Source: a virus
Length of the DNA: 33,244 nucleotides
IMG/VR virus record: IMGVR_UViG_3300030118_003075
Coordinates: 1 to 33,244 of that record
Reading direction: 5' to 3' (one strand)
Shown piece by piece: positions 4,580-32,332 of the stretch. A program made the translations under genes and the position numbers. The notes under the pieces were generated by a model that was given only the letters and a program-made list of their open reading frames with translations, was not told where the DNA came from and searched no databases. Within the stretch, counting starts at the first letter, position 1. Each line of letters starts with the position of its first letter.

Positions 4580-4824
4580 TGAGTGATTTGAGTGATTTAG
4601 ATAGAGATGAATTAGAAATGTTAAGTCAATACATACAAAATCAACAACAAATAATAAACGATTTAACAGAAAGAAACATGCAATTAACAACTGAGGTTCA
4701 AGTACAAAGATTACGTATCAAAGAACTTGAACAAATAAATAATGTCAAAGGAAATTTGAATAAACCTAAGGTAAGGCGAAGTCCTTACGTCTTAGAGAGA
4801 TTGCAAAACGCTATTAAGGAATAG
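4579..4824 (+). CDS. small coiled-coil protein
   Basis: 81 residues, start ATG overlapping the previous TAA stop. Residues about 6-55 are strongly helical with heptad-like spacing and many Gln/Glu/Asn (LSQYIQNQQQIINDLTERN, then RLRIKELEQI), so a coiled coil is expected. The last 25 residues are basic (KPKVRRSPYVLERL). It has no enzyme motif. Lying between two fibre genes, it could be a fibre chaperone, a trimerisation factor or a small whisker-type component; this is inference from position only. Confidence 0.55.
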   Translation: MSDLSDLDRDELEMLSQYIQNQQQIINDLTERNMQLTTEVQVQRLRIKELEQINNVKGNLNKPKVRRSPYVLERLQNAIKE

Positions 4825-17117: not shown

Positions 17118-17780
17118 ATGAAGCTAATATCAGAAACAACATTTGACCACATCAGACCAGTAATAACTGAAGCTAAAGATGGTAAAGGAAAAGATTACTT
17201 TATCGAAGGTATCTTTATGCAAGGTGGTATAAAAAACAGAAACGGTCGTATGTATCCAATGGAAACATTAGATAAGGAAGTACAAAGATACAACGACACA
17301 TTCGTAAAGAACAACAGAGCTTATGGTGAATTAGGACACCCAGACGGTCCAACCATAAACTTAGAAAGAGTCTCCCATATGATCAAAGACTTACGAAGAG
17401 AAGGTCAAGATTATATAGGAAAGGCAAAAGTCATGGACACACCATATGGTAAGATTGTTAAAAGTCTTATAGATGAAGGTGCATCTTTAGGTGTATCATC
17501 AAGAGGTATGGGATCCATTAGACAGACGCCTGAAGGTATCAACGAAGTGCAGGGTGATTTTCAGCTTGCGACTGCCGGTGATATCGTTGCAGATCCTTCT
17601 GCTCCTAACGCTTTTGTAAATGGAGTTATGGAAGGGGTAGAATGGATTTATGACGCTGCTTCCAATTCTTGGAAATCACAAGCTGTGGTAGAAGAGATTG
17701 TGAAGACTGGCAACGTAAATGCTAGAGAATTACAGGAGAAAAAGGTAGAATTGTTTGAAAAATTCCTAAATACCCTGTAA
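17118..17780 (+). CDS. 21: prohead core protease gp21
   Basis: 220 residues (T4: 212), start ATG three bases after the previous stop. Family marks are YFIEGIFMQGGIKNRNGRMYP, the catalytic His74 in AYGELGHPDGP, and the nucleophile serine in LGVSSRGMGS (Ser127 or Ser128). This is the assembly protease (S77/prohead protease fold) that cuts core proteins and the capsid protein before DNA packaging. The C-terminus is helical and charged, as in T4 where the protease processes itself. Neighbours 67, 68, 22 and 23 are its expected substrates. Confidence 0.95.
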   Translation: MKLISETTFDHIRPVITEAKDGKGKDYFIEGIFMQGGIKNRNGRMYPMETLDKEVQRYNDTFVKNNRAYGELGHPDGPTINLERVSHMIKDLRREGQDYIGKAKVMDTPYGKIVKSLIDEGASLGVSSRGMGSIRQTPEGINEVQGDFQLATAGDIVADPSAPNAFVNGVMEGVEWIYDAASNSWKSQAVVEEIVKTGNVNARELQEKKVELFEKFLNTL

Positions 17781-17790
17781 ACTAATAATT

Positions 17791-17798
17791 TATAAATA
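17791..17798 (+). promoter_or_regulatory. T4-type late promoter before scaffold and capsid genes
   Basis: Exact TATAAATA eleven bases after the gp21 stop and 41 bases before the gp22 ATG, with GAGGAG at 17827-17832 as ribosome binding site. It should drive gp22 and gp23, whose short 29-base intergenic gap contains no late promoter of its own. Confidence 0.85.
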
Positions 17799-17838
17799 AT
17801 ATACAAACGTATACACTCAAATTAACGAGGAGAAAAAA

Positions 17839-18885
17839 ATGGCTAATGAACTAGATAAGTTCGACAATGAAATCGAAGCTGTGGCCGAAGAGCAAGTAGA
17901 ACTTGACGAGTTTAAGGCCAGCGGTGAAAATTCAGAAATCGCTGACCCTGTGGTTAAAGGAAGCAATAAAAGACCTGCTGATAAAACAGTAGGATTTACT
18001 GCACCTAATCCAGGCGGAGCGGACGTAAAATCTGGATCAGAGTCTAAAGGAGAAGATTTAATTAGCGCTAAAGGAAGTAAAGCACCAGCACGTAAAGCAG
18101 ACAAAAGTGTTTCTGCTAACATGAAGGATGCTCCTAAAGTAGCTACTCCTGGACAAGGTTCAGGTGTCAAGGAAGATATCGACGCTATATTTGGTGAAGA
18201 TTTATCCGAAGACCTAAGAGAAAAAGCTGAGACAGTATTTGAAGCTGCTGTTAGTGCTAGAGTTGCTGAGATCAATACTCAATACTCTGAAGCATTTGAT
18301 GAGCAGATCAATGAAGCTAAAGAAGCAATCAAAGAAGACATGACTGGTAAACTTGATGAATACATCAATTACTTATCAGAGCAATGGTTAGAAGAGAATA
18401 AAGTTGCTATCGAGTCATCTTTAAAAGTCGAAGTTGCTGAATCTTTCATGTCTGGTCTAAAAGGATTAATAGAAGCACATAACGTGATTCTTCCTGAAGA
18501 TAACGAAACAGATGTTCTTGCATCTCTTGAATCAAGAGTAGAAGAACTAGAAGGTAAACTTGAAGAGGAAACTAGTGAGAAAATAGGTCTTGCTAATGAA
18601 CTCATCGAGTCACAAGTACAGAACATATTTGCTGAAGCTGTAGATGGCTTAGCAGATACTCAGATTGAAAAACTCCGTGCTCTATCGGAAGGACTTGATT
18701 ATGAGAACGTCGAGGATTTCTCTAACAAACTTAACACTTTGAAAGAGTCATACCTTGAGGACAAACAGGCTAAAACATCAGACTTGTCTGATGAAGACCC
18801 AGTGGAGCTTGACGAAGAAGTTAAGTCTCTTCCAGGTGGCATGGCCAAGTATGCTGACGCGATTTCGCGAACAGTTAGGAAATAA
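17839..18885 (+). CDS. 22: prohead scaffold protein gp22
   Basis: 348 residues (T4: 269). The N-terminal third is polar and disordered with Lys/Gly/Ala/Ser. From residue about 110 the protein is almost wholly helical and acidic with heptad-like runs (LREKAETVFEAAVSARVAEI, then LASLESRVEELEGKLEEE), as expected of the major scaffold of T4-like proheads. It is located directly before the capsid gene and after the protease. The C-terminal SLPGGMAKYADAISRTVRK is the conserved scaffold-to-capsid contact end. It is removed by gp21 after assembly. Confidence 0.9.
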   Translation: MANELDKFDNEIEAVAEEQVELDEFKASGENSEIADPVVKGSNKRPADKTVGFTAPNPGGADVKSGSESKGEDLISAKGSKAPARKADKSVSANMKDAPKVATPGQGSGVKEDIDAIFGEDLSEDLREKAETVFEAAVSARVAEINTQYSEAFDEQINEAKEAIKEDMTGKLDEYINYLSEQWLEENKVAIESSLKVEVAESFMSGLKGLIEAHNVILPEDNETDVLASLESRVEELEGKLEEETSEKIGLANELIESQVQNIFAEAVDGLADTQIEKLRALSEGLDYENVEDFSNKLNTLKESYLEDKQAKTSDLSDEDPVELDEEVKSLPGGMAKYADAISRTVRK

Positions 18886-18914
18886 TTCGTATTATATTTT
18901 AAGGGGAAATTAAA

Positions 18915-20240
18915 ATGGAATCAAACTACGAAGCACTCCAAAACAAGTGGCAGCCAATTATTGAGCATACAGACTTACCTGAAATTTCAGATAGTCACAA
19001 AAAATCAGTAACTGCTGTTTGTTTGGAAAACACAGAGAGAGCAATTGCAGAAGATAAAGGTTTTTCACCTAACAATCTTTTAGCAGAGGCTCCAACAAAC
19101 GCAACTGGTTCAAACATAGATAACTATGACCCAGTTTTAATTAGCTTAGTACGTAGAGCAATGCCAAACTTAGTCGCTTATGACTTAGTTGGTGTTCAGC
19201 CAATGACTGGTCCTACAGGTTTAATATTTGCTATGAGAAGCAGATATACAAACCAGACTGGTGATGAGGCTTTCTATAACGAAGCAAACTCAGAATTCTC
19301 TACAGTAGTAGCAGGTTCTGGTAACAATACCTTAGGTCAATCACAAGACGGTACTCAGCCATCAGGTAACAGTACTTCTTATAACTTTGCAGAAGGTATG
19401 TCAACAGCTCAAGCAGAAACTCTTGGTGAATCTGGAAACAGTGCTTTTGCTGAAATGGCTTTCTCAATTGAGAAAATTGCTGTTACAGCTAAGTCAAGAG
19501 CTCTAAAAGCTGAGTACTCAATGGAACTAGCTCAGGATCTAAAAGCTATTCATGGCTTAGATGCTGAAACAGAACTTGCAAACATCTTATCAACAGAGAT
19601 TTTAGCAGAGATCAACAGAGAGATCGTCAGAACAGTTAACTTAGTTGCTGTTACTGGTGCTCAACAAAATGTTAGCTCAGCTGGATCTTTCGACTTAGAC
19701 GTTGATTCAAATGGTAGATGGATGGTTGAGAAGTTCAAAGGTTTAATGTTCCAAATTGAGAGAGAAGCTAATGAGATCGCAAGAGGAACAAGAAGAGGTA
19801 AAGGTAACATCATGTTATGTTCATCCGATGTCGCTTCTGCTCTTCAAATGGCTGGCGTGTTAGATTACACACCTGCTTTAAACTCTAACAACTTACAAGT
19901 TGATGACACAGGCTCAACATTTGCTGGTGTCCTTAACGGAAGAATTAGAGTGTTCATCGATCCATACTTTGCTCCAAGTTCAGGTATTCACTACATGACT
20001 GTTGGTTACAAAGGATCAAGCGCTTTTGATGCTGGATTATTCTACTGCCCATACGTTCCACTACAAATGGTGAGAGCGGTTGGTGAGAATACATTCCAAC
20101 CAAAAATTGGATTCAAAACTAGGTATGGAGTTGTTGAAAACCCATTCGCTAGAGGTACTGATGCACTAAGTGCTGCAGGTGCTCTTGATGACAATGCTAA
20201 CAAATACTACAGAAGAGTATTAGTTAAAAACATAATGTAA
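18915..20240 (+). CDS. 23: major capsid protein gp23
   Basis: 441 residues (T4: 521; marine forms are shorter). LQNKWQPIIEHTDLPEISDS near the start, IDNYDPVLISLVRRAMPNLVAYDLVGVQPM and the C-terminal YYRRVLVKNIM are diagnostic. Residues 56-58 (LAE) followed by APTNATGSN fit the T4 protease rule (Leu/Ile-x-Glu), so processing after Glu58 is expected. AAGGGG about nine bases before ATG is the ribosome binding site. It is the end of the head operon and is followed by a strong terminator. It builds the HK97-fold shell. Confidence 0.97.
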   Translation: MESNYEALQNKWQPIIEHTDLPEISDSHKKSVTAVCLENTERAIAEDKGFSPNNLLAEAPTNATGSNIDNYDPVLISLVRRAMPNLVAYDLVGVQPMTGPTGLIFAMRSRYTNQTGDEAFYNEANSEFSTVVAGSGNNTLGQSQDGTQPSGNSTSYNFAEGMSTAQAETLGESGNSAFAEMAFSIEKIAVTAKSRALKAEYSMELAQDLKAIHGLDAETELANILSTEILAEINREIVRTVNLVAVTGAQQNVSSAGSFDLDVDSNGRWMVEKFKGLMFQIEREANEIARGTRRGKGNIMLCSSDVASALQMAGVLDYTPALNSNNLQVDDTGSTFAGVLNGRIRVFIDPYFAPSSGIHYMTVGYKGSSAFDAGLFYCPYVPLQMVRAVGENTFQPKIGFKTRYGVVENPFARGTDALSAAGALDDNANKYYRRVLVKNIM

Positions 20241-20260
20241 TAGTAATTACTATAATGTTT

Positions 20261-20288
20261 AAAGGAGGCTTCGGCCTCCTTTTTTTTT
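20261..20288 (+). terminator. strong rho-independent terminator after capsid gene
   Basis: AAAGGAGGC, loop TTCG, GCCTCCTTT, then an eight-base T-run ending at 20288. A nine-base-pair GC-rich stem closed by the very stable UUCG loop with a T-run is a textbook terminator. It separates late head genes from the next block. Confidence 0.95.
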
Positions 20289-20296
20289 GTCTTTAC

Positions 20297-20353
20297 CTGT
20301 TGACTTCAAATCGGATATTGGAGATAATAGTTGTATGTTAAGTAAGGAGAAAA
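20297..20353 (+). repeat. promoter/leader cassette, copy A
   Basis: A 57-base unit repeated at 20947-21003. The first 16 bases and the last 31 bases are identical in both copies; only the ten bases in the promoter spacer differ. It holds the -35, -10, leader and ribosome binding site (AAGGAG 20344-20349) of the gene at 20359. The conservation of leader as well as promoter suggests functional constraint or recent duplication. Confidence 0.85.
20300..20328 (+). promoter_or_regulatory. sigma-70-type early promoter A
   Basis: TTGACT (20300-20305), a 17-base spacer and GATAAT (20323-20328): near-consensus host vegetative promoter immediately behind the capsid gene terminator. The predicted transcription start is near 20335. 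Confidence 0.85.
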
Positions 20354-20358
20354 AAGAA

Positions 20359-20556
20359 ATGAGTAATCACGTAAACGAAATAGTCCTTGAGCAAATCTTG
20401 GACGATGTGTTAGACCTTCATAAGGGTGACATTTGGAATGTAATCTTTGCAATTGAGAATGAGTTTGGTATTGAACATTTACCTAACCCAGCTGATGGTG
20501 AAGATGGTTTTATCAACAAGCTAGTAGAGCTTAGATTTGAAGCGAGGTGCATATAA
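20359..20556 (+). CDS. small acidic protein, unknown (early island gene 1)
   Basis: 65 residues from ATG 20359, nine bases after AAGGAG. It is acidic and helical (VNEIVLEQILDDVLDLHKGDIWNVIF) with no recognised family. An in-frame ATG at 20335 (MLSKEKKE...) lies almost exactly at the predicted transcription start and would give a leaderless longer form of 73 residues; the ribosome-binding-site start is preferred. It sits downstream of early promoter A. The stop overlaps the next start. Its function is unknown; small acidic early phage proteins often bind host proteins, but nothing here proves that. Confidence 0.65.
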   Translation: MSNHVNEIVLEQILDDVLDLHKGDIWNVIFAIENEFGIEHLPNPADGEDGFINKLVELRFEARCI

Positions 20557-20945
20557 TGAAATTTGTAGAAAGATTTAACGATTGGAGTGTCCGTAAGTAT
20601 GACGGAGCTGAAATGGTAATTGATGGTGAGTTCTATCACGGAATGATAACTGAGTTATCTGAAGAAGGTATAGAGTTTTTACCATTCACTATAGATCATG
20701 AATACAAACATAACGATCCAAGAAATAGTTATGATAAGATTTGGATTCATATGGAAAACTTTGACAAATATAAGTTAGAGATATGGGATGAGGCTAGAGG
20801 ATGTGATAATTCTGCTATTGGTGTTTCAGGATGTTTTGAACCTTGGAGACATGTATGGCCAGAAGAGAACATGGCTGTCAAAACCATGACAGGAACATAC
20901 TTAAAGTCATTAGAACCTAAACAGTTGGAAATTAATTTTGGATAA
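20556..20945 (+). CDS. hypothetical protein (early island gene 2)
   Basis: 129 residues from ATG 20556, which overlaps the TAA of the upstream gene; GAGG lies about eight bases before. A TTG three codons upstream is an unlikely start. The sequence is rich in Trp, His and acidic residues (FNDWSVRKYDGAEMVIDGEFYHG, then KIWIHMENFDKYKLEIWDEARG, FEPWRHVWPEE). It looks like a soluble mixed alpha/beta domain, no signal peptide or membrane segment. I recognise no family. It is co-transcribed with gene 1 of the island. Confidence 0.6.
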   Translation: MKFVERFNDWSVRKYDGAEMVIDGEFYHGMITELSEEGIEFLPFTIDHEYKHNDPRNSYDKIWIHMENFDKYKLEIWDEARGCDNSAIGVSGCFEPWRHVWPEENMAVKTMTGTYLKSLEPKQLEINFG

Positions 20946-20946
20946 A

Positions 20947-21003
20947 CTGTTGACTTCAAATCAAGAATTTAGGATAATAGTTGTATGTTAAGTAAGGAGA
21001 AAA
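20947..21003 (+). repeat. promoter/leader cassette, copy B
   Basis: Second copy of the 57-base unit described at 20297-20353, placed two bases after the stop of island gene 2. Identical over 16 bases at the left and 31 at the right. It includes AAGGAG at 20994-20999. Confidence 0.85.
20950..20978 (+). promoter_or_regulatory. sigma-70-type early promoter B
   Basis: TTGACT (20950-20955), 17-base spacer, GATAAT (20973-20978), the same boxes and spacing as promoter A. It should start transcription near 20985 and drive the genes at 21006 and 21527. Confidence 0.85.
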
Positions 21004-21005
21004 GC

Positions 21006-21527
21006 ATGGAAAATTTTGAGATAATTAGAGACTACTACAGACAGTTTGATCTGAAGAAAGAAGATAGATATGAAGCACCTAATGGTGTGTCAGCTGACGA
21101 CAGTTATGTGTTAGCTGGTAGAAGCCATAGATGTCTTGGTCCTGGTAGAGAGCGTGGATTGTTTACTAACAGAAACGCTACTGAAGCAGATAGACTTTCT
21201 GCAAAGTTTCCTTCATACGAAGGTGATTCAGTTGAAGGTTCTGCTAAGAAGGCTTTCTTTGATGGCGATATTGTTAGATGGAAGTCTAATGGTAGAATAC
21301 CTTTCGGTGATATGTTGCTTGACTTCTATCACTGTGGATACATTACTAAGGATCAGATGATTGAGTCAGCTATCCTTCAAGAGAAAGGTAATGAAGACTT
21401 TTGGGATAACATGACTACTAAAAGATATGTAGATGAAGAAACTGGTCAGCATATGGTTAGGTTCGTACCAGGTGAGTCTTCTTTCAAAGAAGAAGTTGAA
21501 TATACTAACCAAAGGAGTGTAGCGTAA
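21006..21527 (+). CDS. hypothetical protein (early island gene 3)
   Basis: 173 residues from ATG 21006, six bases after AAGGAG. An in-frame ATG at 20985 (MLSKEKS...) lies at the predicted transcription start, as in copy A, giving a possible 180-residue form. It is charged and soluble, with Gly/Arg-rich patches (LAGRSHRCLGPGRERGLFTNR) and aromatic segments (FGDMLLDFYHCGYITKDQM). No family is recognised and no membrane or signal segment is seen. The stop overlaps the next gene (TAATG). Confidence 0.65.
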   Translation: MENFEIIRDYYRQFDLKKEDRYEAPNGVSADDSYVLAGRSHRCLGPGRERGLFTNRNATEADRLSAKFPSYEGDSVEGSAKKAFFDGDIVRWKSNGRIPFGDMLLDFYHCGYITKDQMIESAILQEKGNEDFWDNMTTKRYVDEETGQHMVRFVPGESSFKEEVEYTNQRSVA

Positions 21528-21949
21528 TGTTAGAGTGGGATCAATTATCAGAGAAGGAGCAACTGCTCCAGTATATCTCAGACGAGTACAAGCGTGCTTA
21601 TGGCATGAGACCTAGAGGCGACTTCTATAACAATAGAACTGTCGAGCAGCTTAGAGTTGATCTTGATGAGCTCAATAAGTATGCTAACGAGCAGTATGAG
21701 ATTGAGAAGGCTCATGAAGTTGAAAAACTTGAAGAGTTTGAAGAAAAACTATTCTGGATTCAACAAGAGCTTGGTGCTGAGAATAGAATGCAAGCTCTTA
21801 GATGGGTAATTCAAGATGATGAGTATGCTCAAACAGATCCAGGATACTTCATGTATATGAATGGATTCTCTGAGTATACTAATGACGCTGCAAGATATCT
21901 TCTTCAAGATATCATCACAATCAATAAGCAATTAGCTGTTGACTTATAA
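21527..21949 (+). CDS. hypothetical helical protein (early island gene 4)
   Basis: 140 residues, ATG overlapping the upstream TAA, with AAAGGAG before it. It is highly charged and helical, with a coiled-coil-like stretch (VEQLRVDLDELNKYANEQYEIEKAHEVEKLEEFEEKL, residues about 40-75, in shorter heptads) and an acidic overall composition. No family is recognised. Its TAA stop is embedded in a late promoter (TATAAATA 21945-21952), so the island ends exactly where the next late unit begins. Confidence 0.65.
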   Translation: MLEWDQLSEKEQLLQYISDEYKRAYGMRPRGDFYNNRTVEQLRVDLDELNKYANEQYEIEKAHEVEKLEEFEEKLFWIQQELGAENRMQALRWVIQDDEYAQTDPGYFMYMNGFSEYTNDAARYLLQDIITINKQLAVDL

Positions 21950-21952
21950 ATA
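21945..21952 (+). promoter_or_regulatory. T4-type late promoter overlapping a stop codon
   Basis: Exact TATAAATA; its bases 3-5 are the stop codon of island gene 4. Expected transcription start is near 21958, at the foot of the first leader hairpin. It drives the gene at 22033 and probably gp3. Confidence 0.8.
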
Positions 21953-21958
21953 CAATTA

Positions 21959-22001
21959 GCATATACTGATATGCAAGTCGGGGGAGTCATGACTCCCACC
22001 G
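21959..22001 (+). promoter_or_regulatory. two-hairpin 5' leader of a late transcript
   Basis: Two stems in tandem directly behind the late promoter. The first is GCATAT, loop ACTG, ATATGC (21959-21974). The second is centred on the perfect palindrome GGGAGTCATGACTCCC (21982-21997), with flanking CGG/CCG able to extend it to 21979-22001. No T-run follows, so a terminator is unlikely. A 5'-end structure protecting mRNA or regulating translation is the simplest reading; the palindrome could also bind a dimeric protein. Confidence 0.5.
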
Positions 22002-22032
22002 GCGATATTGACACATACACACAGGAGGAATT

Positions 22033-22269
22033 ATGTCAGATAAGAAATCAGGCTATGAGATAAGAGCCGACTTGCTTTCGCAAGCTCAGGGGTTATTGCA
22101 AGATAACAGACACGCAATCACAGACAAATATCACAATATGGTTTGTAGAGCACAAGAACAGAAAGATGTTCCTTGGCCGGAATATCCATCGGAGTTAATG
22201 ACTCCAATGACTGCTCAAGATGTTATCAATGTTGCAAAACAGTTTAACGATTTTGTAAATAGCAAATAA
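22033..22269 (+). CDS. small conserved marine T4-like phage protein, unknown
   Basis: 78 residues, with AGGAGG four bases before the ATG. The N-terminus (SGYEIRADLLSQAQGLLQDNRHAI) and C-terminus (MTAQDVINVAKQFNDFVNSK) belong to a small helical protein that I recall as recurring in marine T4-like phages near virion genes; this is memory of a family, not a search. No catalytic motif is seen. It is expressed from the late promoter at 21945, suggesting a late role, possibly in assembly. Confidence 0.65.
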   Translation: MSDKKSGYEIRADLLSQAQGLLQDNRHAITDKYHNMVCRAQEQKDVPWPEYPSELMTPMTAQDVINVAKQFNDFVNSK

Positions 22270-22829: not shown

Positions 22830-23078
22830 TTGAATCAAAGAAAAAGAAGAGCGCTGAAAGAAGCGACAGTCGATACGTTTTTAGGAACATTAATAATGTT
22901 TCCTTTGAACTTTCTTATTGTATATATTTGCCTAGAACTGTTGTCTTTTAATGCGTTACAGATTACAATAGCCAGTACGGCAACATTGTTTATTGTTGCT
23001 GTATGGAGAAAAGCAACTGTAAGATTATATTTTGAGAAAAAGTATGACACTAGAAGAAATACAAACATTATGGAGTAA
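22830..23078 (+). CDS. small two-helix membrane protein (DUF7220-like)
   Basis: 82 residues from TTG 22830, directly after the gp3 stop, with no visible ribosome binding site; translation probably depends on coupling. A basic start (NQRKRRALKEAT) precedes two membrane helices, residues 17-38 and 42-59, and a basic C-terminus (RKATVRLYFEKKYDTRR). The pattern of short basic N-terminus, hairpin of two helices and Arg/Lys end resembles the DUF7220 family of small phage membrane proteins. Function is unknown. The last 35 bases overlap the uvsY start. Confidence 0.6.
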   Translation: MNQRKRRALKEATVDTFLGTLIMFPLNFLIVYICLELLSFNALQITIASTATLFIVAVWRKATVRLYFEKKYDTRRNTNIME

Positions 23079-26975: not shown

Positions 26976-28691
26976 ATGATTACATTTGAGAAGATTAGAT
27001 TCAAAAACTTTCTGTCATATGGCAATAGCTGGACAGAAATAGACTTAAACAAACATAAAGATACATTAATCATAGGAGAGAATGGAGCAGGTAAGTCTAC
27101 ATTCTTAGATGCATTATCTTATGCATTGTACATGAAACCTTTTAGAAAGGTAAACAATCCACAACTTGTAAACAGTATTAATAAGAAACATTTGTATGTA
27201 GAAGTAGAATTCAAAGTGGGTGGTAATCATTACAAAGTAGGAAGAGGCCATGCACCGAGAAAATTTGAAGTGTATCAAAATGGTGAACTACTTAACCAAG
27301 AAGCACATACAAAAGATTATCAAAAGATATTAGAACAACAGATACTAAAAATGAACTACAAATCTTTTACACAGATTGTAGTATTAGGATCGAGAAACTT
27401 TGTTCCATTCATGCAATTGAATGCTACAGATAGAAGAACAGTTATAGAAGACTTATTAGATATACAAATCTTTAGTGTGATGGCTGGTATACTAAAAGAT
27501 AAACTAGCAGAGAATACAAAAGACCTTACACAGATAGAGTATGAGGTAAATCTAATAAATGAAAAGATAGAAGTACAGCAAGAATATATTGATAAAGTAA
27601 ACCAAGATAAAGAAGATGTAATTCTCAAAATCCAGAATCAGATAAATGAGAAGACAGTAGAAGTAGAAAACCTTGTTGAAGAACAAGATAACTTGTTAGA
27701 GCAAGCAAAACTATTAGCAGAGCAAGCAGATCCACTAGAATCTGTTTCAGCTAAGATTCAACAATATCTTGCTTTAGAAAATCAAATAGAAAGTAAATTA
27801 ACAAAGCTCAAGAAGCAATTGAAGTTCTATGAAGAGAATGATCATTGTGATACTTGTGGACAGGAGATAGAACATGAATTTAAAAAGTCGCAAATCGAAT
27901 CGTCAAATTCGGCTATCTCCGAAACAGTGGGCGGCCTTAAGCAGCTCGAACAAGAAATTACTAAGAGCTCATCTCGAGTCGAGAAACTTAGATCCCTTAA
28001 AGAAGAAGCAGATGAACTTAAAACCACAGCCTCGAATAAGGGAAGCACTGCAGCAGCAATTGAAGAAATCATTGAAAGCCTACAAAATGAATTGGATGAA
28101 GTTCAAGTCCAAGCTGGTGAAGATGGTAAAGCTAGAACAAAGTTAAACGAATTACAAACTAGTCTTGATGATATCAATATTAGAAAGACAGACTTAAGAC
28201 GTAAAGCATCTATATACAACACAGCACAGATTCTGTTAAAAGATACTGGTATCAAGTCAAGGATTATAAAACAATATGTTCCTGTAATAAACAAGTTGAT
28301 TAACAAGTATCTGGCAGCAATGGAATTCTTTGTAGACTTTAACTTAGATGAAGACTTCAAAGAAACTATTAGATCAAGACATAGAGACGACTTTGTATAT
28401 TCATCTTTCTCAGAAGGTGAGAAAATGAGAATTGACTTATCATTATTGTTTACTTGGAGAGCAATAGCTAAGTTAAAGAATAGTGCAAGTACAAATATAT
28501 TGATTATGGATGAGATATTTGATAGTAGTTTAGATAGTCAAGGAACAGATGAGTTCTTAAAGATTATAAAAGAGTTGACTTCTGATACGAATATCATTAT
28601 AATAAGCCACAAGACAGATCAGCTGTTGGATAAGTTTAGTAATGTAATTAAGTTTGAGAAGTACAAGAACTTCTCTAGGATAGCAGGATGA
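26976..28691 (+). CDS. 46: recombination nuclease subunit gp46 (Rad50-like)
   Basis: 571 residues (T4: 560). Walker A GENGAGKST (Lys40), a long coiled coil interrupted by a zinc hook CDTCGQ (Cys291, Cys294), the signature SSFSEGEKMRIDLS, and Walker B LIMDEIFD (Asp512, Glu513). It is the SMC-like ATPase partner of gp47. It begins six bases after gp47. About 150 bases after the hook (27886-28035) are distinctly richer in G/C (29 of 60 at 27901-27960) than the surroundings. A near-perfect sigma-70 promoter is embedded near its 3' end. Confidence 0.95.
   Translation: MITFEKIRFKNFLSYGNSWTEIDLNKHKDTLIIGENGAGKSTFLDALSYALYMKPFRKVNNPQLVNSINKKHLYVEVEFKVGGNHYKVGRGHAPRKFEVYQNGELLNQEAHTKDYQKILEQQILKMNYKSFTQIVVLGSRNFVPFMQLNATDRRTVIEDLLDIQIFSVMAGILKDKLAENTKDLTQIEYEVNLINEKIEVQQEYIDKVNQDKEDVILKIQNQINEKTVEVENLVEEQDNLLEQAKLLAEQADPLESVSAKIQQYLALENQIESKLTKLKKQLKFYEENDHCDTCGQEIEHEFKKSQIESSNSAISETVGGLKQLEQEITKSSSRVEKLRSLKEEADELKTTASNKGSTAAAIEEIIESLQNELDEVQVQAGEDGKARTKLNELQTSLDDINIRKTDLRRKASIYNTAQILLKDTGIKSRIIKQYVPVINKLINKYLAAMEFFVDFNLDEDFKETIRSRHRDDFVYSSFSEGEKMRIDLSLLFTWRAIAKLKNSASTNILIMDEIFDSSLDSQGTDEFLKIIKELTSDTNIIIISHKTDQLLDKFSNVIKFEKYKNFSRIAG
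28575..28603 (+). promoter_or_regulatory. sigma-70 promoter inside gp46, upstream of def
   Basis: TTGACT (28575-28580), 17-base spacer, TATAAT (28598-28603). Both boxes are at or one base from consensus. Transcription would begin near 28610, about 80 bases before the peptide deformylase ATG, providing an early promoter for the metabolic cluster independent of gp46/47. Confidence 0.75.
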
Positions 28692-29260
28692 CAGAAAAGA
28701 AATTTGAAAAGAAGTATAATTTGATAGATGCTAAAGATCCATTACTTTGGGAAAAGTTACCAAGATTTGATATAAACAATCCGCCTGAGGGTGTTGATCC
28801 AGTAGAACTTGGTAAAGATTTATTAGCTCACATGAGGTACTTTGGTGGTATAGGATTGTCTGCAAACCAGTTAGGATTGCCTTATAGAGTATTTGTTATG
28901 GAAGGTGATCCTGGATTTGTATGTTTCAATCCAACAATTACAGCTTATGCAGGTGAGTTAGTAAATTTAGATGAGGGTTGTTTATCATATCCTGGCCTGT
29001 ATGTTAAAAAGAAAAGACGAGGATTGATAAGAGTTAGGTTTCAAGATCCATATGGCAATCCTTGTGTCAAGAAGTTTTCAGGAATGTCTGCGAGAATATT
29101 TCAACACGAAATGGAACATATGGAAGGTGAAAATTTCTTAGAAGGAGTTAGTAGATTAGCTTTAGATAATGCAAGAAGGAAACAAAGAAACTTGTTAAGA
29201 AGAGTAAAAAGAGAAACAGAAGGAAGATCAAAACACGGAACAGGTAAAAGAAGAGGATGA
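28688..29260 (+). CDS. def: peptide deformylase
   Basis: 190 residues, ATGA overlap with gp46. All three family motifs are present: motif I GIGLSANQLG, motif II EGCLSYPG (metal ligand Cys98), motif III QHEMEHMEG (His140 and His144 as ligands, Glu141 catalytic). The canonical HEFDH core reads HEMEH here, a conservative change. The enzyme removes the N-formyl group from new proteins. The C-terminus carries a basic tail of about 40 residues (RKQRNLLRRVKRE, then KHGTGKRRG) that could bind ribosome or RNA. Phage deformylases occur in marine T4-like phages and are thought to help host or phage protein turnover during infection. Confidence 0.92.
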   Translation: MTEKKFEKKYNLIDAKDPLLWEKLPRFDINNPPEGVDPVELGKDLLAHMRYFGGIGLSANQLGLPYRVFVMEGDPGFVCFNPTITAYAGELVNLDEGCLSYPGLYVKKKRRGLIRVRFQDPYGNPCVKKFSGMSARIFQHEMEHMEGENFLEGVSRLALDNARRKQRNLLRRVKRETEGRSKHGTGKRRG

Positions 29261-29784
29261 AAATAAATCTAATCTATGGAACAGAGACAGGTTTCACCAA
29301 GTCTATTGGTGAAGATATATTAAGACTATGGGAAGTTGCTGGACATGAGACTAGATTAATAAAAGTAGATGAAGCTGCAACAGAAGACTGGAGAGCCGAC
29401 TTATTGATTATGGGTGCACCTACTTGGTGTGAACCTAGATTAGATACATTTGGTGAGTATAGTGATGATTGGAATGAAACAGACTTATCTAAAATAGACT
29501 TCAAAGATCAAACAGTAGCTTTGTTTGGTTTAGGTGATCAAGTAGGTTATGGAAATAACTTTGTAGATGCCTTAGGTATGATGTCTGAACCAGTACTTAA
29601 GGGTGGTGGTAAACTTATAGGTAAAGTACCTACAAAGCTATACAACTACGAACTATCTCAAGGAGAAGATGGTGAAGGAAACTTTTGGGGACTACCAATA
29701 GATGAAGATAATGAACCTACTATGTCTCCACAAAGAATAATGGACTGGGTAGAACAACTAAAGAAGGAATTAAATGTCGAATAA
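29257..29784 (+). CDS. flavodoxin
   Basis: 175 residues, of the long-chain flavodoxin length. The FMN phosphate loop TETGFT (residues 9-14), the isoalloxazine loop GAPTWCEPRLDTFGEYSDDW and the LFGLGDQVGYGNNFVDALG segment are all present in family order. Flavodoxin is a one-electron carrier that replaces ferredoxin under low iron and reduces the cluster of radical-SAM enzymes in many bacteria. It overlaps the def stop (ATGA) and the queE start by 11 bases, so it is probably translated with queE and may serve that enzyme directly. No signal peptide, so cytoplasmic. Confidence 0.93.
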   Translation: MKINLIYGTETGFTKSIGEDILRLWEVAGHETRLIKVDEAATEDWRADLLIMGAPTWCEPRLDTFGEYSDDWNETDLSKIDFKDQTVALFGLGDQVGYGNNFVDALGMMSEPVLKGGGKLIGKVPTKLYNYELSQGEDGEGNFWGLPIDEDNEPTMSPQRIMDWVEQLKKELNVE

Positions 29785-30649
29785 CGTATACGCATATTCA
29801 GAAATATTTGACTCAATACAAGGTGAGGGTGAGTACACTGGGTATCCTACTGCGTGGTTAAGATTCTATCTTTGTAATCTACAATGTAATGGTTTTAGTC
29901 AAGATGATCCAACAGATCCAAGTACATACAAACTACCATACAAAGACTTTGATCTTATAGAAGTAAACAGATTAGAAGAACTACCTGTATGGGAATATGG
30001 CTGTGATAGTTCATACTCTTGGTCTAAGAAGTTCAAACACTTACAGCATAAGTTTACATCAAGAGAGATAGCTGATAAGATTAGAAAAGAGTTTACTAAT
30101 GAGCACAATAAAGGTAAGTGGCTCAATAGACATATGTGTTTCACTGGTGGTGAGCCTTTGATGAAACATGCACAGTTATGTACAATGGAAGTTATGCAAC
30201 ACTATATGAATGATGGTGACTATCCTAAGTTTGTAACATATGAAACTAATGGTACACAAATGCCTAGACCAGAGTTTATTGATTTCTGGAAAGAGTATGA
30301 TGGAGAGTTAATGATATCATGTAGTCCTAAATTGTTTACTGTAGCAGGTGAGACTACTAAGAGAGCTATAAGACCAGAAGTAGTAGCTAGGTATATGGAG
30401 TTTGCAGATAGAGGTTATCTTAAGTTCGTTGTAACTGGTGAACCAAGAGCTTGGGAAGAGTTAGATGTGACAATAGAAAAGTTTAGAGAAGCTGGAGTCG
30501 ATTGGCCTATATGGATTATGCCAAGTGGTGCTACAGTAGAAGGTCAACAAGTACATGATGGTGATGTTGCTAAGATGGCTTTCCAAAGAGGATATAATGT
30601 AAGTGCAAGGGTGCACACATACTTGTGGGGGAATTTGATAGGTGTTTAG
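29774..30649 (+). CDS. queE: 7-carboxy-7-deazaguanine synthase QueE (radical SAM)
   Basis: 291 residues. IFDSIQGEGEYTGYPTAWLRF is the QueE start, and FTGGEPLM is the radical-SAM GGEP strand. The third and later segments (TYETNGTQMP, ISCSPKL, YLKFVV) are also family features. The SAM-cluster motif is unusual: Cys34-x3-Cys38 is present, but the normal third cysteine position is Phe41, and the next candidate is Cys77 in YGCDSSYSW. The 38 residues between hold a Pro/Asp/Thr-rich insert. QueE converts 6-carboxytetrahydropterin into 7-carboxy-7-deazaguanine. The gene overlaps flavodoxin. Activity depends on Cys77 completing the cluster. Confidence 0.92.
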   Translation: MSNNVYAYSEIFDSIQGEGEYTGYPTAWLRFYLCNLQCNGFSQDDPTDPSTYKLPYKDFDLIEVNRLEELPVWEYGCDSSYSWSKKFKHLQHKFTSREIADKIRKEFTNEHNKGKWLNRHMCFTGGEPLMKHAQLCTMEVMQHYMNDGDYPKFVTYETNGTQMPRPEFIDFWKEYDGELMISCSPKLFTVAGETTKRAIRPEVVARYMEFADRGYLKFVVTGEPRAWEELDVTIEKFREAGVDWPIWIMPSGATVEGQQVHDGDVAKMAFQRGYNVSARVHTYLWGNLIGV

Positions 30650-31220
30650 TCCAATAATGTTATGTGGTACATTCAAAACTACAATAGATGTAGACAATGA
30701 TCAAATCAATGAAGATGTTTTGAAAAGAAAAAATATGAAACTTTCTGATGATCCAGGCAATACATTTCAAGAAGATAGTTTTTATCCATCAACAGAAGCA
30801 TGTAACGATTTGATTGAAAAAGTAGATAATGTTATACAAAAAGAAATAAATCCATACTTTAAATCTTATAACAAATGGGCACATATATTAGAACCTAATG
30901 AACAAACAATGATTCATACTCATGATAGTCCAGGTAGTCCTCCTCATTTATCTTGGGTATATTATTCAAAAACCGATGACAATTGTGGAAATATAGTATG
31001 GCAAAGTACTATACACAATAGATTTTTCTCAATAGAAGAAACACCAAAAGTTGGAATGCTAATTATCTTTCCTAATTGGATGCCACACTTCACTAAAAAG
31101 AACAACAGCAATAATATTAGAATAAGCATAAGCGGAAACGCAAAGCCTGATGAAAAGGATTACAATGCTGTTGGAACTAATCCAGGAGGGCTTTTTAATA
31201 TAGTAGGAGTTACACAATAA
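30642..31220 (+). CDS. 2OG-Fe(II) oxygenase-like protein
   Basis: 192 residues from GTG 30642, overlapping the queE stop by eight bases; ATG 30657 is the alternative start and would give 187 residues. The second half has the pattern of the putative 2OG-Fe(II) oxygenase family PF13759: MIHTHDSPGS (His92, His94), HLSWVYYSK, GNIVW, then GMLIIFPNWMPHF (His149) and NIRISISGN (Arg160). These suit iron and 2-oxoglutarate binding. Substrate is unknown; members are common in marine T4-like phages and are sometimes near DNA-modification genes. The N-terminal third has no recognised motif. Confidence 0.7.
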   Translation: MFSPIMLCGTFKTTIDVDNDQINEDVLKRKNMKLSDDPGNTFQEDSFYPSTEACNDLIEKVDNVIQKEINPYFKSYNKWAHILEPNEQTMIHTHDSPGSPPHLSWVYYSKTDDNCGNIVWQSTIHNRFFSIEETPKVGMLIIFPNWMPHFTKKNNSNNIRISISGNAKPDEKDYNAVGTNPGGLFNIVGVTQ

Positions 31221-31432
31221 TGCCAGTGAAGTTAAAACCAAGTGTTGTGAAGATAGATAGAGCAACAAAAAAGAAGTCAATAGAGCATACATATGCTAAG
31301 ACTCAATCAAAAGAAGAATTAGTTAAAATGTTAAATCATGAATACACAAGACCAAAAGTAAAACAAAAAATTAGAAATGAACTAGTGAGAAGAGGTTATA
31401 AAATTGTATACGTCAATAAAGAAGTTCTCTGA
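31220..31432 (+). CDS. small basic conserved phage protein, unknown
   Basis: 70 residues, ATG overlapping the upstream TAA, AGGAG about ten bases before. It is strongly basic (KKSIEHTYAKTQSKEELVKML, then KQKIRNELVRRGYKIVYV). The MPVKLKPS start and the KVKQKIRNELVRRG helix recur, as I recall, in small proteins of marine T4-like phages. It may bind nucleic acid, judged only by charge. The last 29 bases overlap the acetyltransferase gene in another frame. Confidence 0.6.
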   Translation: MPVKLKPSVVKIDRATKKKSIEHTYAKTQSKEELVKMLNHEYTRPKVKQKIRNELVRRGYKIVYVNKEVL

Positions 31433-31847
31433 GTTGACCACAAATGAATTATATGATATACTGCAACTTAGAAATAAATGTTTTATAGTAGATCAACAAG
31501 TTGCATATCAAGATTTAGACAACTATGATAAAGAAAGCTATCATTTTATTATATATGATGGTGGCAGTAGTAGCTTGGCTGCTTACGCAAGGGTCATAAA
31601 ACCAAACATAAGATTTGAAGAACCTTCCTTAGGAAGAGTTTGCATAGACAAACAATATAGAGATGGAACATACTTGAATGAGATATACAAAGAAGTAATT
31701 AGGTGGGGTGATTTTCTTGGATATAAAGTTTGGAGAGCAATACTACAAAAAGAATATTGGTCAATATGGAAACGAAAAGGTTGGGAAATAGATAAAGAAA
31801 TTATTGAAGATGGAGTCGAAAGTTATGAAGTTATTCTTAGGAGGTAA
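31404..31847 (+). CDS. GNAT acetyltransferase, ElaA-like
   Basis: 147 residues from TTG 31404 (an upstream TAA in frame excludes a longer form and no ATG lies near). ILQLRNKCFIVDQQVAYQDLDNYDKESYHF is the ElaA-type N-terminus (LQLR--VFVVEQ--PYQD-D), followed by the core strand AAYARVIKP and the CoA-binding region LGRVCIDKQYRDGTYLNEIY. It is a probable acetyl-CoA N-acyltransferase of unknown substrate. GAAGAGG lies about eight bases before the TTG. It has a candidate sigma-70 promoter within its first 60 bases. The queD GTG starts two bases after its stop. Confidence 0.75.
   Translation: MYTSIKKFSELTTNELYDILQLRNKCFIVDQQVAYQDLDNYDKESYHFIIYDGGSSSLAAYARVIKPNIRFEEPSLGRVCIDKQYRDGTYLNEIYKEVIRWGDFLGYKVWRAILQKEYWSIWKRKGWEIDKEIIEDGVESYEVILRR
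31434..31462 (+). promoter_or_regulatory. candidate sigma-70 promoter inside the acetyltransferase gene
   Basis: TTGACC (31434-31439), 17-base spacer, TATACT (31457-31462). Less perfect than the other four early promoters but with the same spacer length. It would drive queD and folE2. A chance match in AT-rich DNA is possible. Confidence 0.4.
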
Positions 31848-31849
31848 AG

Positions 31850-32332
31850 GTGAAGAAAAGATTTCTTAGTGGCAAAACTTATACTCACAGCACTGGCCAC
31901 AGCTGTGCATTTAGACAATGGAGAGCAGATAGTCATTGTAATCTAATACATGGTTATGCTCTTCAATTTGAACTTACATTTGGATCCACTGGTCTGGATG
32001 AAAAGAATTGGGTAGTAGACTTTGGTGGTCTAAAAGAACTGAAAGAATGGTTGAAGCATATGTTTGACCATACATATCTGATTGCAACAGATGATCCACA
32101 CTTCGATACATTTGTAGAGTTAGCAGATAAAAACCTCGTAGACCTCAGAGAAGTAGAGGCAGTTGGTTGTGAAAGGTTTGCAGAGTTGACTTTTGATAAA
32201 GCATCTAGTATAATAGCAGACAAGTATGGAGATAGATGTTGGGTTGAAAGTGTTACAGTTAGAGAACATGAATCTAACTCAGCTACTTGTGTAAACATGG
32301 AAAGACCAATGAACGAGGAACAAGATGCCTAA
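31850..32332 (+). CDS. queD: 6-carboxy-tetrahydropterin synthase QueD
   Basis: 160 residues from GTG 31850, with AGGAGG (31839-31844) five bases before. The 6-pyruvoyl-tetrahydropterin synthase fold shows the first zinc His17 (TGHSCAF), catalytic Cys30 (SHCNLIHGYAL), VVDFGGLKEL, the catalytic Asp-His in MFDHTYLIATDDP, and VREHESNSATC at the end. QueD turns dihydroneopterin triphosphate into 6-carboxytetrahydropterin. The canonical HGH zinc pair is HGY here (His34, Tyr36), so one zinc ligand is replaced. Its gene overlaps folE2, the enzyme of the previous step. Confidence 0.92.
   Translation: MKKRFLSGKTYTHSTGHSCAFRQWRADSHCNLIHGYALQFELTFGSTGLDEKNWVVDFGGLKELKEWLKHMFDHTYLIATDDPHFDTFVELADKNLVDLREVEAVGCERFAELTFDKASSIIADKYGDRCWVESVTVREHESNSATCVNMERPMNEEQDA
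32186..32214 (+). promoter_or_regulatory. sigma-70 promoter inside queD, upstream of folE2
   Basis: TTGACT (32186-32191), 17-base spacer, TATAAT (32209-32214). The boxes are identical to those of the promoter inside gp46. Transcription would start near 32221, about 105 bases before the folE2 ATG. Confidence 0.7.

Follow-up and report, generated by a model that had tools for sequence, protein, structure and literature searches.

A putative PeSL-like site of exchangeable early-type cassettes behind gp23 in a marine T4-like phage clade

Mobile regulatory cassettes called PeSLs (promoter-early stem-loops) were reportedly described in RB49, phi1, and other T4-type phages by Arbiol et al. in 2010 and Comeau et al. 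in 2014. In T4, the stretch from genes 23/24 to uvsW (segD, rnlB, hoc, and inh) is hyperplastic and occupies the same syntenic position as the locus described here. It contains nonessential, variable genes, including a ligase, as our site does; the two were compared by family only.

The PeSL definition followed here comes in part from passages of PMC4503421, which cites Arbiol 2010 and Comeau 2014. Our locus resembles a PeSL in having, at its first unit, a terminator stem-loop and a strong sigma-70-like, presumably early promoter that lead orphan genes in a plastic region. It also resembles one in its apparent shuffling by recombination between repeated regulatory units. A 2006 paper on T4-like phages (PMC1524935) reports, in part of its text, a gene 23 terminator in six genomes and early promoters that lead novel ORFs. 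That part of the text describes no near-identical promoter array at the gene 23 site, unlike what we found.

The DNA analyzed (the window) is one entire viral contig of 33,244 bases. Its genes are those of a T4-like phage's late structural region and, after these, UvsY, UvsW, gp55, gp47, and gp46. The order gp23, gp19-like, UvsY, UvsW, gp55, gp47, gp46 has homologs in relatives and is that of a T4-like late region. The genes for gp23, the gp19-like protein, and UvsY were named by family match, and those from UvsW onward were read from the sequence. The nearest named relatives of gp23 were from Stenotrophomonas phage DLP_6 (73%) and Methylophilales phage Melnitz (68%), with others from cyanophages and pelagiphages. 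The nearest terminases were from a marine virus and Melnitz, both at about 56%. Melnitz (PMC9004378; 31 early and 15 late predicted promoters) and DLP_6 share with the window the core order from gp23 through UvsY, UvsW, and gp55 but lack the island. Melnitz has one gene between gp23 and UvsY, and DLP_6 has an exonuclease and a tail-tube gene there. The island promoter pattern was absent from both genomes.

The island in the window contains four genes, A to D. We consider it very probably an exchangeable, PeSL-like early-cassette site behind the gp23 terminator, shared by a marine T4-like clade. This reading draws on variable gene content, a breakpoint inside a repeat, and the occurrence of the same promoter and of homologs of A, B, and D beside replication genes.

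Terminator and promoters of the island

The gp23 gene ends at 20240. An intrinsic terminator was found behind it by scan and fold at 20261 to 20290 on the plus strand. It consists of AAAGGAGG-CTTCGG-CCTCCTTT and a T run. The stem is 9 bp (20261 to 20282), with the T run behind it and a fold z of -3.3. Terminator stems at this position vary in sequence among relatives, and their pairing is kept.

Two copies of a 57-bp promoter/leader repeat, 88% identical, lie on the plus strand. Copy 1 (20297 to 20353) has its -35 element at 20300 to 20305, its -10 element at 20323 to 20328, and a Shine-Dalgarno (SD) sequence, AAGGAG, at 20344 to 20349. Its predicted +1 is the ATG at 20335. Copy 2 (20947 to 21003) has its -35 element at 20950 to 20955, its -10 element at 20973 to 20978, and its predicted +1 at the ATG at 20985. 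No terminator lies ahead of it. Both promoters (20300 to 20328 and 20950 to 20978) read TTGACT-17-GATAAT and match the consensus at 10/12 positions. The repeat, the terminator, and the four open genes bear out a first-pass annotation, which had placed two gene pairs between the gp23 terminator and the gene at 22033, each led by a host-type promoter.

The likeness to PeSLs is partial. Only the first unit in the window has a stem-loop, and the predicted +1 coincides with an ATG. The site lies within the structural region, behind gp23, and the phages are uncultured and marine. The second promoter is not a full PeSL because it has no stem-loop. The first cassette has a terminator, so terminator and promoter form a PeSL-like unit there.

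Promoter-like sites as a class were not in excess here (60 found, 56 expected in shuffles). The repeat promoter pattern had two sites in the whole window and none in 100 shuffles. It was conserved in 33 further viral contigs, several with at least two copies. Many of these contigs come from close relatives that differ in their genes between gp23 and E. Of the 57 distinct promoter sites, 25 had a terminator no more than 110 nt upstream, versus 0.5% of random positions. Where an array has a terminator, it precedes the first promoter. The late motif NATAAATA had 11 sites on the plus strand of the window and none on the minus strand. Nine of the 11 were directly ahead of genes, and none fell within 20241 to 21944. 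Late promoters of the form TATAAATA are likewise present elsewhere on the plus strand and absent inside the island.

Genes A to D could instead be ordinary late genes for assembly or accessory virion functions, read through from gp23, with the promoter-like sites as AT-rich by-products. The genes do share the late strand with the late genes around them, and as a class the promoter-like sites are as frequent as in shuffles. However, the strong terminator, the missing late motif, and a conserved 57-bp repeat common to many contigs all argue against read-through. So do the A, B, and D homologs near replication genes and the lack of any sequence match to a virion-protein family, which also agrees with the earlier view that no island protein is virion-like. 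The late-gene reading is highly improbable. The island promoters appear to be strong sigma-70-type and presumably early. Early firing is suggested by their sequence, by the missing late motifs, and by the surroundings of the homologs.

Under the cassette reading, the site would be filled by small early-type cassettes, each with at least one accessory gene behind the same promoter and leader. The terminator and the strong host-type promoter would insulate and drive these genes within a late region. Unmodified host polymerase would transcribe them early in infection.

A hybrid promoter precedes gene E at 21939 to 21967 on the plus strand. It has TTGACT (-35; 21939 to 21944) and TATACT (-10; 21962 to 21967) with a spacing of 17. 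The late motif TATAAATA sits in its spacer at 21945 to 21952. The late promoter previously proposed before 22033 is thus present as a motif at 21945, but it is nested in a host-type promoter. Two hairpins (21959 to 22003, plus strand) have a fold z of -3.7. The first, GCATAT-ACTG-ATATGC at 21959 to 21974, covers the -10 element. The second, GTCGGGGGAGT...ACTCCCACCGGC, is at 21977 to 22003. The hybrid layout is conserved in this clade: 25 of the 51 distinct sequences examined from upstream of E have it, and in L193 and L211, the host-type elements alone are kept. The arms of the inverted repeat over the -10 element vary among relatives (GTAGTA/TACTAC, GCATAT/ATATGC, and others), with complementarity kept. 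Such an arrangement is consistent with an operator or with a 5'-terminal hairpin of the late message. The hybrid promoter may allow E to be expressed both early and late.

The end of gene D, where AVDL runs into TTGACTT, was considered as a promoter scar. The idea was suggestive because D runs into a real island promoter in L177 to L179. The TTGACTT may just be the -35 element of the hybrid promoter.

Farther downstream, TTGACT-17-TATAAT at 28575 to 28603 (plus strand; 11/12) was the best host-type promoter match on the plus strand in the scanned part. It is near the end of gp46 and ahead of a peptide deformylase-like gene at 28688. By inspection, 28688 to 32332 contains host-like metabolic genes (peptide deformylase, flavodoxin, QueE-like radical SAM, and QueD-like), possibly a 7-deazaguanine pathway.

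Cargo between gp23 and gene E

Genes A to D are all on the plus strand. Gene A (20359 to 20556) encodes 65 amino acids, or 73 when counted from the +1 ATG at 20335. Gene B (20556 to 20945) encodes 129 amino acids and overlaps A by 1 nt. Gene C (21006 to 21527) encodes 173 amino acids, or 180 from 20985. Gene D (21527 to 21949) encodes 140 amino acids and overlaps C by 1 nt. All four are real genes, since pairwise dN/dS against relatives was 0.19 to 0.56, which indicates purifying selection.

None of the four had a match above cutoff in Pfam or NCBIfam, and none matched T4 families in Pfam or PHROGs. The earlier statement that they belong to no recognized family stands for Pfam and NCBIfam but not for D, which matches phrog_21968 (1.3e-15), a family without assigned function. 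Relatives of D occur in Sinorhizobium and Agrobacterium phages. C was found only inside this phage group, with a conserved core (RWKSNGRxPFGDMLLDF), and a search for it in bacterial genomes found none. Island DNA had no similarity to named phages, and protein searches with C and B had no match in named phages. Rfam gave subthreshold matches alone on the island. The predicted structure of B was beta-rich and of low confidence (pLDDT 60; residues 17 to 46 were the best part), and that of C was too poor (pLDDT 57). With these poor models, Foldseek returned no match at an E value of 0.001 or less for C against PDB or for B against BFVD. A sequence-profile search of PDB returned nothing for C and weak matches for D (best E value, 0.02).

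Gene E (22033 to 22269, plus strand) is the conserved gene that bounds the site downstream. It adjoins gp23 in outgroups without the island. Loci were collected by the promoter, gp23, E, F (22863 to 23078), B, C, and D, and the interval from gp23 to E or to the gp19-like gene was compared. The many loci fetched by the promoter are biased toward it, a bias not shared by those fetched by gp23, E, or F. Short metagenomic fragments make up most of the collection.

The content of the interval differed among close relatives. With > for the promoter, the order >A-B>C-D was found in the window, L004, and L015, and some loci had an extra gene after D. L032 has >C-D; L014 and L033 start likewise but run off their ends. 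L012 has >B and runs off its end. L006 has >f1-B>C-f2-f3, L177 has >D>C-f4-f5-f6, and L193 has >f1>D-f4-f2. L178 has >f8-D>C-f4-f5 and runs off its end. D is ahead of C in L177 to L179, and the first promoter leads straight into C in L014, L033, and L005. In L037, whose gp23 is 83% identical, one small ORF alone lies between gp23 and E. In more distant phages, E or the gp19-like gene usually follows gp23 by about 100 to 400 bases. The cargo is variable and noncore and consists mostly of orphan genes. These comparisons uphold the earlier proposal of variable cargo with its own host-type promoters in the late region, and A to D were not universally conserved.

Some cargo genes of relatives have recognizable families. 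Gene f5 encodes an ATP-dependent DNA ligase (Pfam, 3.4e-14; phrog_114, 1.7e-67). L020 contains an HNH-like gene (0.00075, just under the Pfam cutoff, and also in phrog HNH families). Gene f8 resembles the ArdC N-terminal domain; its match did not reach the Pfam cutoff (L179:53-322, 16.9 bits versus 22.6). The ligase, HNH-like, and ArdC-N-like matches fit roles in DNA metabolism or antirestriction and say nothing direct about A to D.

Two loci locate a breakpoint. L014 and L033 share 96.6% identity with the window across approximately 17118 to 20353 (gp21, gp22, gp23, and the promoter). The match resumes at 20944, just ahead of the second promoter. Exactly A-B is missing, with the break inside the promoter repeat; the difference arose by a loss in L014 or a gain in the window. 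The L014 promoter joins the copy 1 spacer of the window, GGATATTGGA, to the copy 2 leader, AAAAGCATGGAAAATTTTGA, as a crossover between copies 1 and 2 would give. Identity of C-D between the L014 pair and the window is a mosaic that jumps between 73 and 100%. In L012, the island promoter and leader are fused straight to gene B. The junctions and the reordered loci suggest that cargo is shuffled or deleted when units recombine with one another, as in PeSLs. The phage's own recombination machinery would use the near-identical promoters as homology, so that cassettes could be lost, gained, reordered, or swapped with the flanking late genes undisturbed. Some of the variation in content could reflect divergence rather than recombination.

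A chance tandem duplication of the promoter in this lineage, within an ancestral, conserved, nonmobile island, is a highly improbable explanation. It would account for the A-B/C-D order repeated in L004, L015, and the window. It does not sit well with the reordered loci (L177 to L179), the partial ones (L032, L014, L033, L005, and L012), the foreign content, or the same promoter at other genome positions. C and D occur together in many members, so a portion of the island may form a stable core.

The two pairs could also be toxin-antitoxin or counterdefense modules specifically, that is, two two-gene operons directed at the host or a rival phage. This is unlikely. The overlapping pairs with host-type promoters would suit it, as would the ArdC-N-like fragment at the site in a relative and a similar protein led by the island promoter in a different array. 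However, the ArdC match is under the Pfam cutoff, and A to D matched no toxin-antitoxin or antidefense family in Pfam, NCBIfam, or PHROGs. The pairings of B and D also vary among loci. B followed A, f1, or an unrelated 87-amino-acid gene or stood alone. D occurred with or without C, ahead of C, or together with an A-like gene. Such varied company argues against strict toxin-antitoxin pairs.

The promoter and its cargo at other loci

Arrays of the island promoter were also found beside gp41 helicase-like genes (L003, L008, and L011) and, in four copies, beside RNase H-like and DUF932-like genes (L025). In L001, the promoter leads f1 within a cluster of metabolic genes. In L197, B is behind the island promoter near RNase H-like and DUF932 genes, and in L199 it is close to ribonucleotide-reductase-like (nrdAB-like) genes. 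D follows UvsX- and gp41-like genes in L192 together with an A-like gene, which adjoins D in L189/L192. Of these neighbors, DUF932 in L197 was tested by profile, and the others were named by reading the sequence.

Several other features were observed in relatives. In L025 (3427 to 5655), the four promoter copies within 2.2 kb lead an f8-like (ArdC-N-like) gene, orphans, and a DUF932-like gene. In L037 (2151 to 2612; the same record as L221) and L035 (2446 to 2843), the promoter leads an RNA of about 440 nt without a long reading frame. The two RNAs are 90% identical and occupy different sites, one after E and the other directly after gp23. Their hairpins show paired changes between the two loci, and their minimum free energy was no better than that of shuffles. 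Rfam contained no match to this RNA, and ARAGORN did not support a tmRNA or tRNA. A glutamine riboswitch (RF01739; 60.9 bits) is ahead of a small ORF, f7, at the site in relatives (L221, 1615 to 1667; L215, 638 to 690; L031, 4755 to 4807). In Melnitz, a glutamine riboswitch is reported with a tmRNA gene instead (PMC9004378). A tRNA gene is near E and the gp19-like gene in L006 (5882 to 5955), L020 (3045 to 3118), L031 (4247 to 4320), and L215 (1125 to 1198). Homologs of E (76 to 86%) are beside sliding-clamp/clamp-loader-like genes, not gp23, in L125 (4887 to 5123) and L128 (5001 to 5237).

Start codons, possible roles, and significance

The island promoter reads GATAAT-AGTTGT-ATG, with the A of the ATG as the predicted first RNA base. 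In 31/31 scorable sites, the +1 ATG shared an open frame with the SD-led ATG of the gene, with leader lengths of 18, 21, 24, 27, and 33; because many leaders share ancestry, 31 is too high as a count of independent cases (perhaps five). In 16 distinct leaders, an ATA replaces the +1 ATG; 10 of these were in frame, and 3 were also open. In L193 (+1 ATG at 4621), the SD-led ATG of f1 is turned into ACG, and L197 (+1 ATG at 4738) has no second ATG. The +1 ATG is the likely start in both, as the SD-led ATG is lost or absent. A leaderless or double start at the island promoter is plausible from these sequences.

A broader reading would join several of these points and is rather doubtful as a whole. 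It holds that the unit is a portable promoter with its own +1 start and a second, SD-led start a few codons inside. Early cargo genes would be translated from leaderless messages, and the cargo would include new host-takeover protein families and, in two relatives, a new structured RNA. Recombination at the unit would join new genes both transcriptionally and in frame.

Accessory roles for A to D in host takeover, nucleic-acid metabolism, or counterdefense would fit the cassette reading. Direct anti-host or counterdefense action by these proteins is a tentative proposal, with the odds somewhat against it. Genes that recur behind the island promoter are good candidates for host takeover and counterdefense screens. 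The pattern TTGACTTCAAATC-N10-GATAATA offers a simple handle for pulling accessory early genes from viral metagenomes. If the +1 ATG is used, the island promoter would provide a clear test case for how early phage genes are translated without a leader. The site would extend promoter-based gene shuffling, known in cultured T4-type phages, to an uncultured marine T4-like clade.
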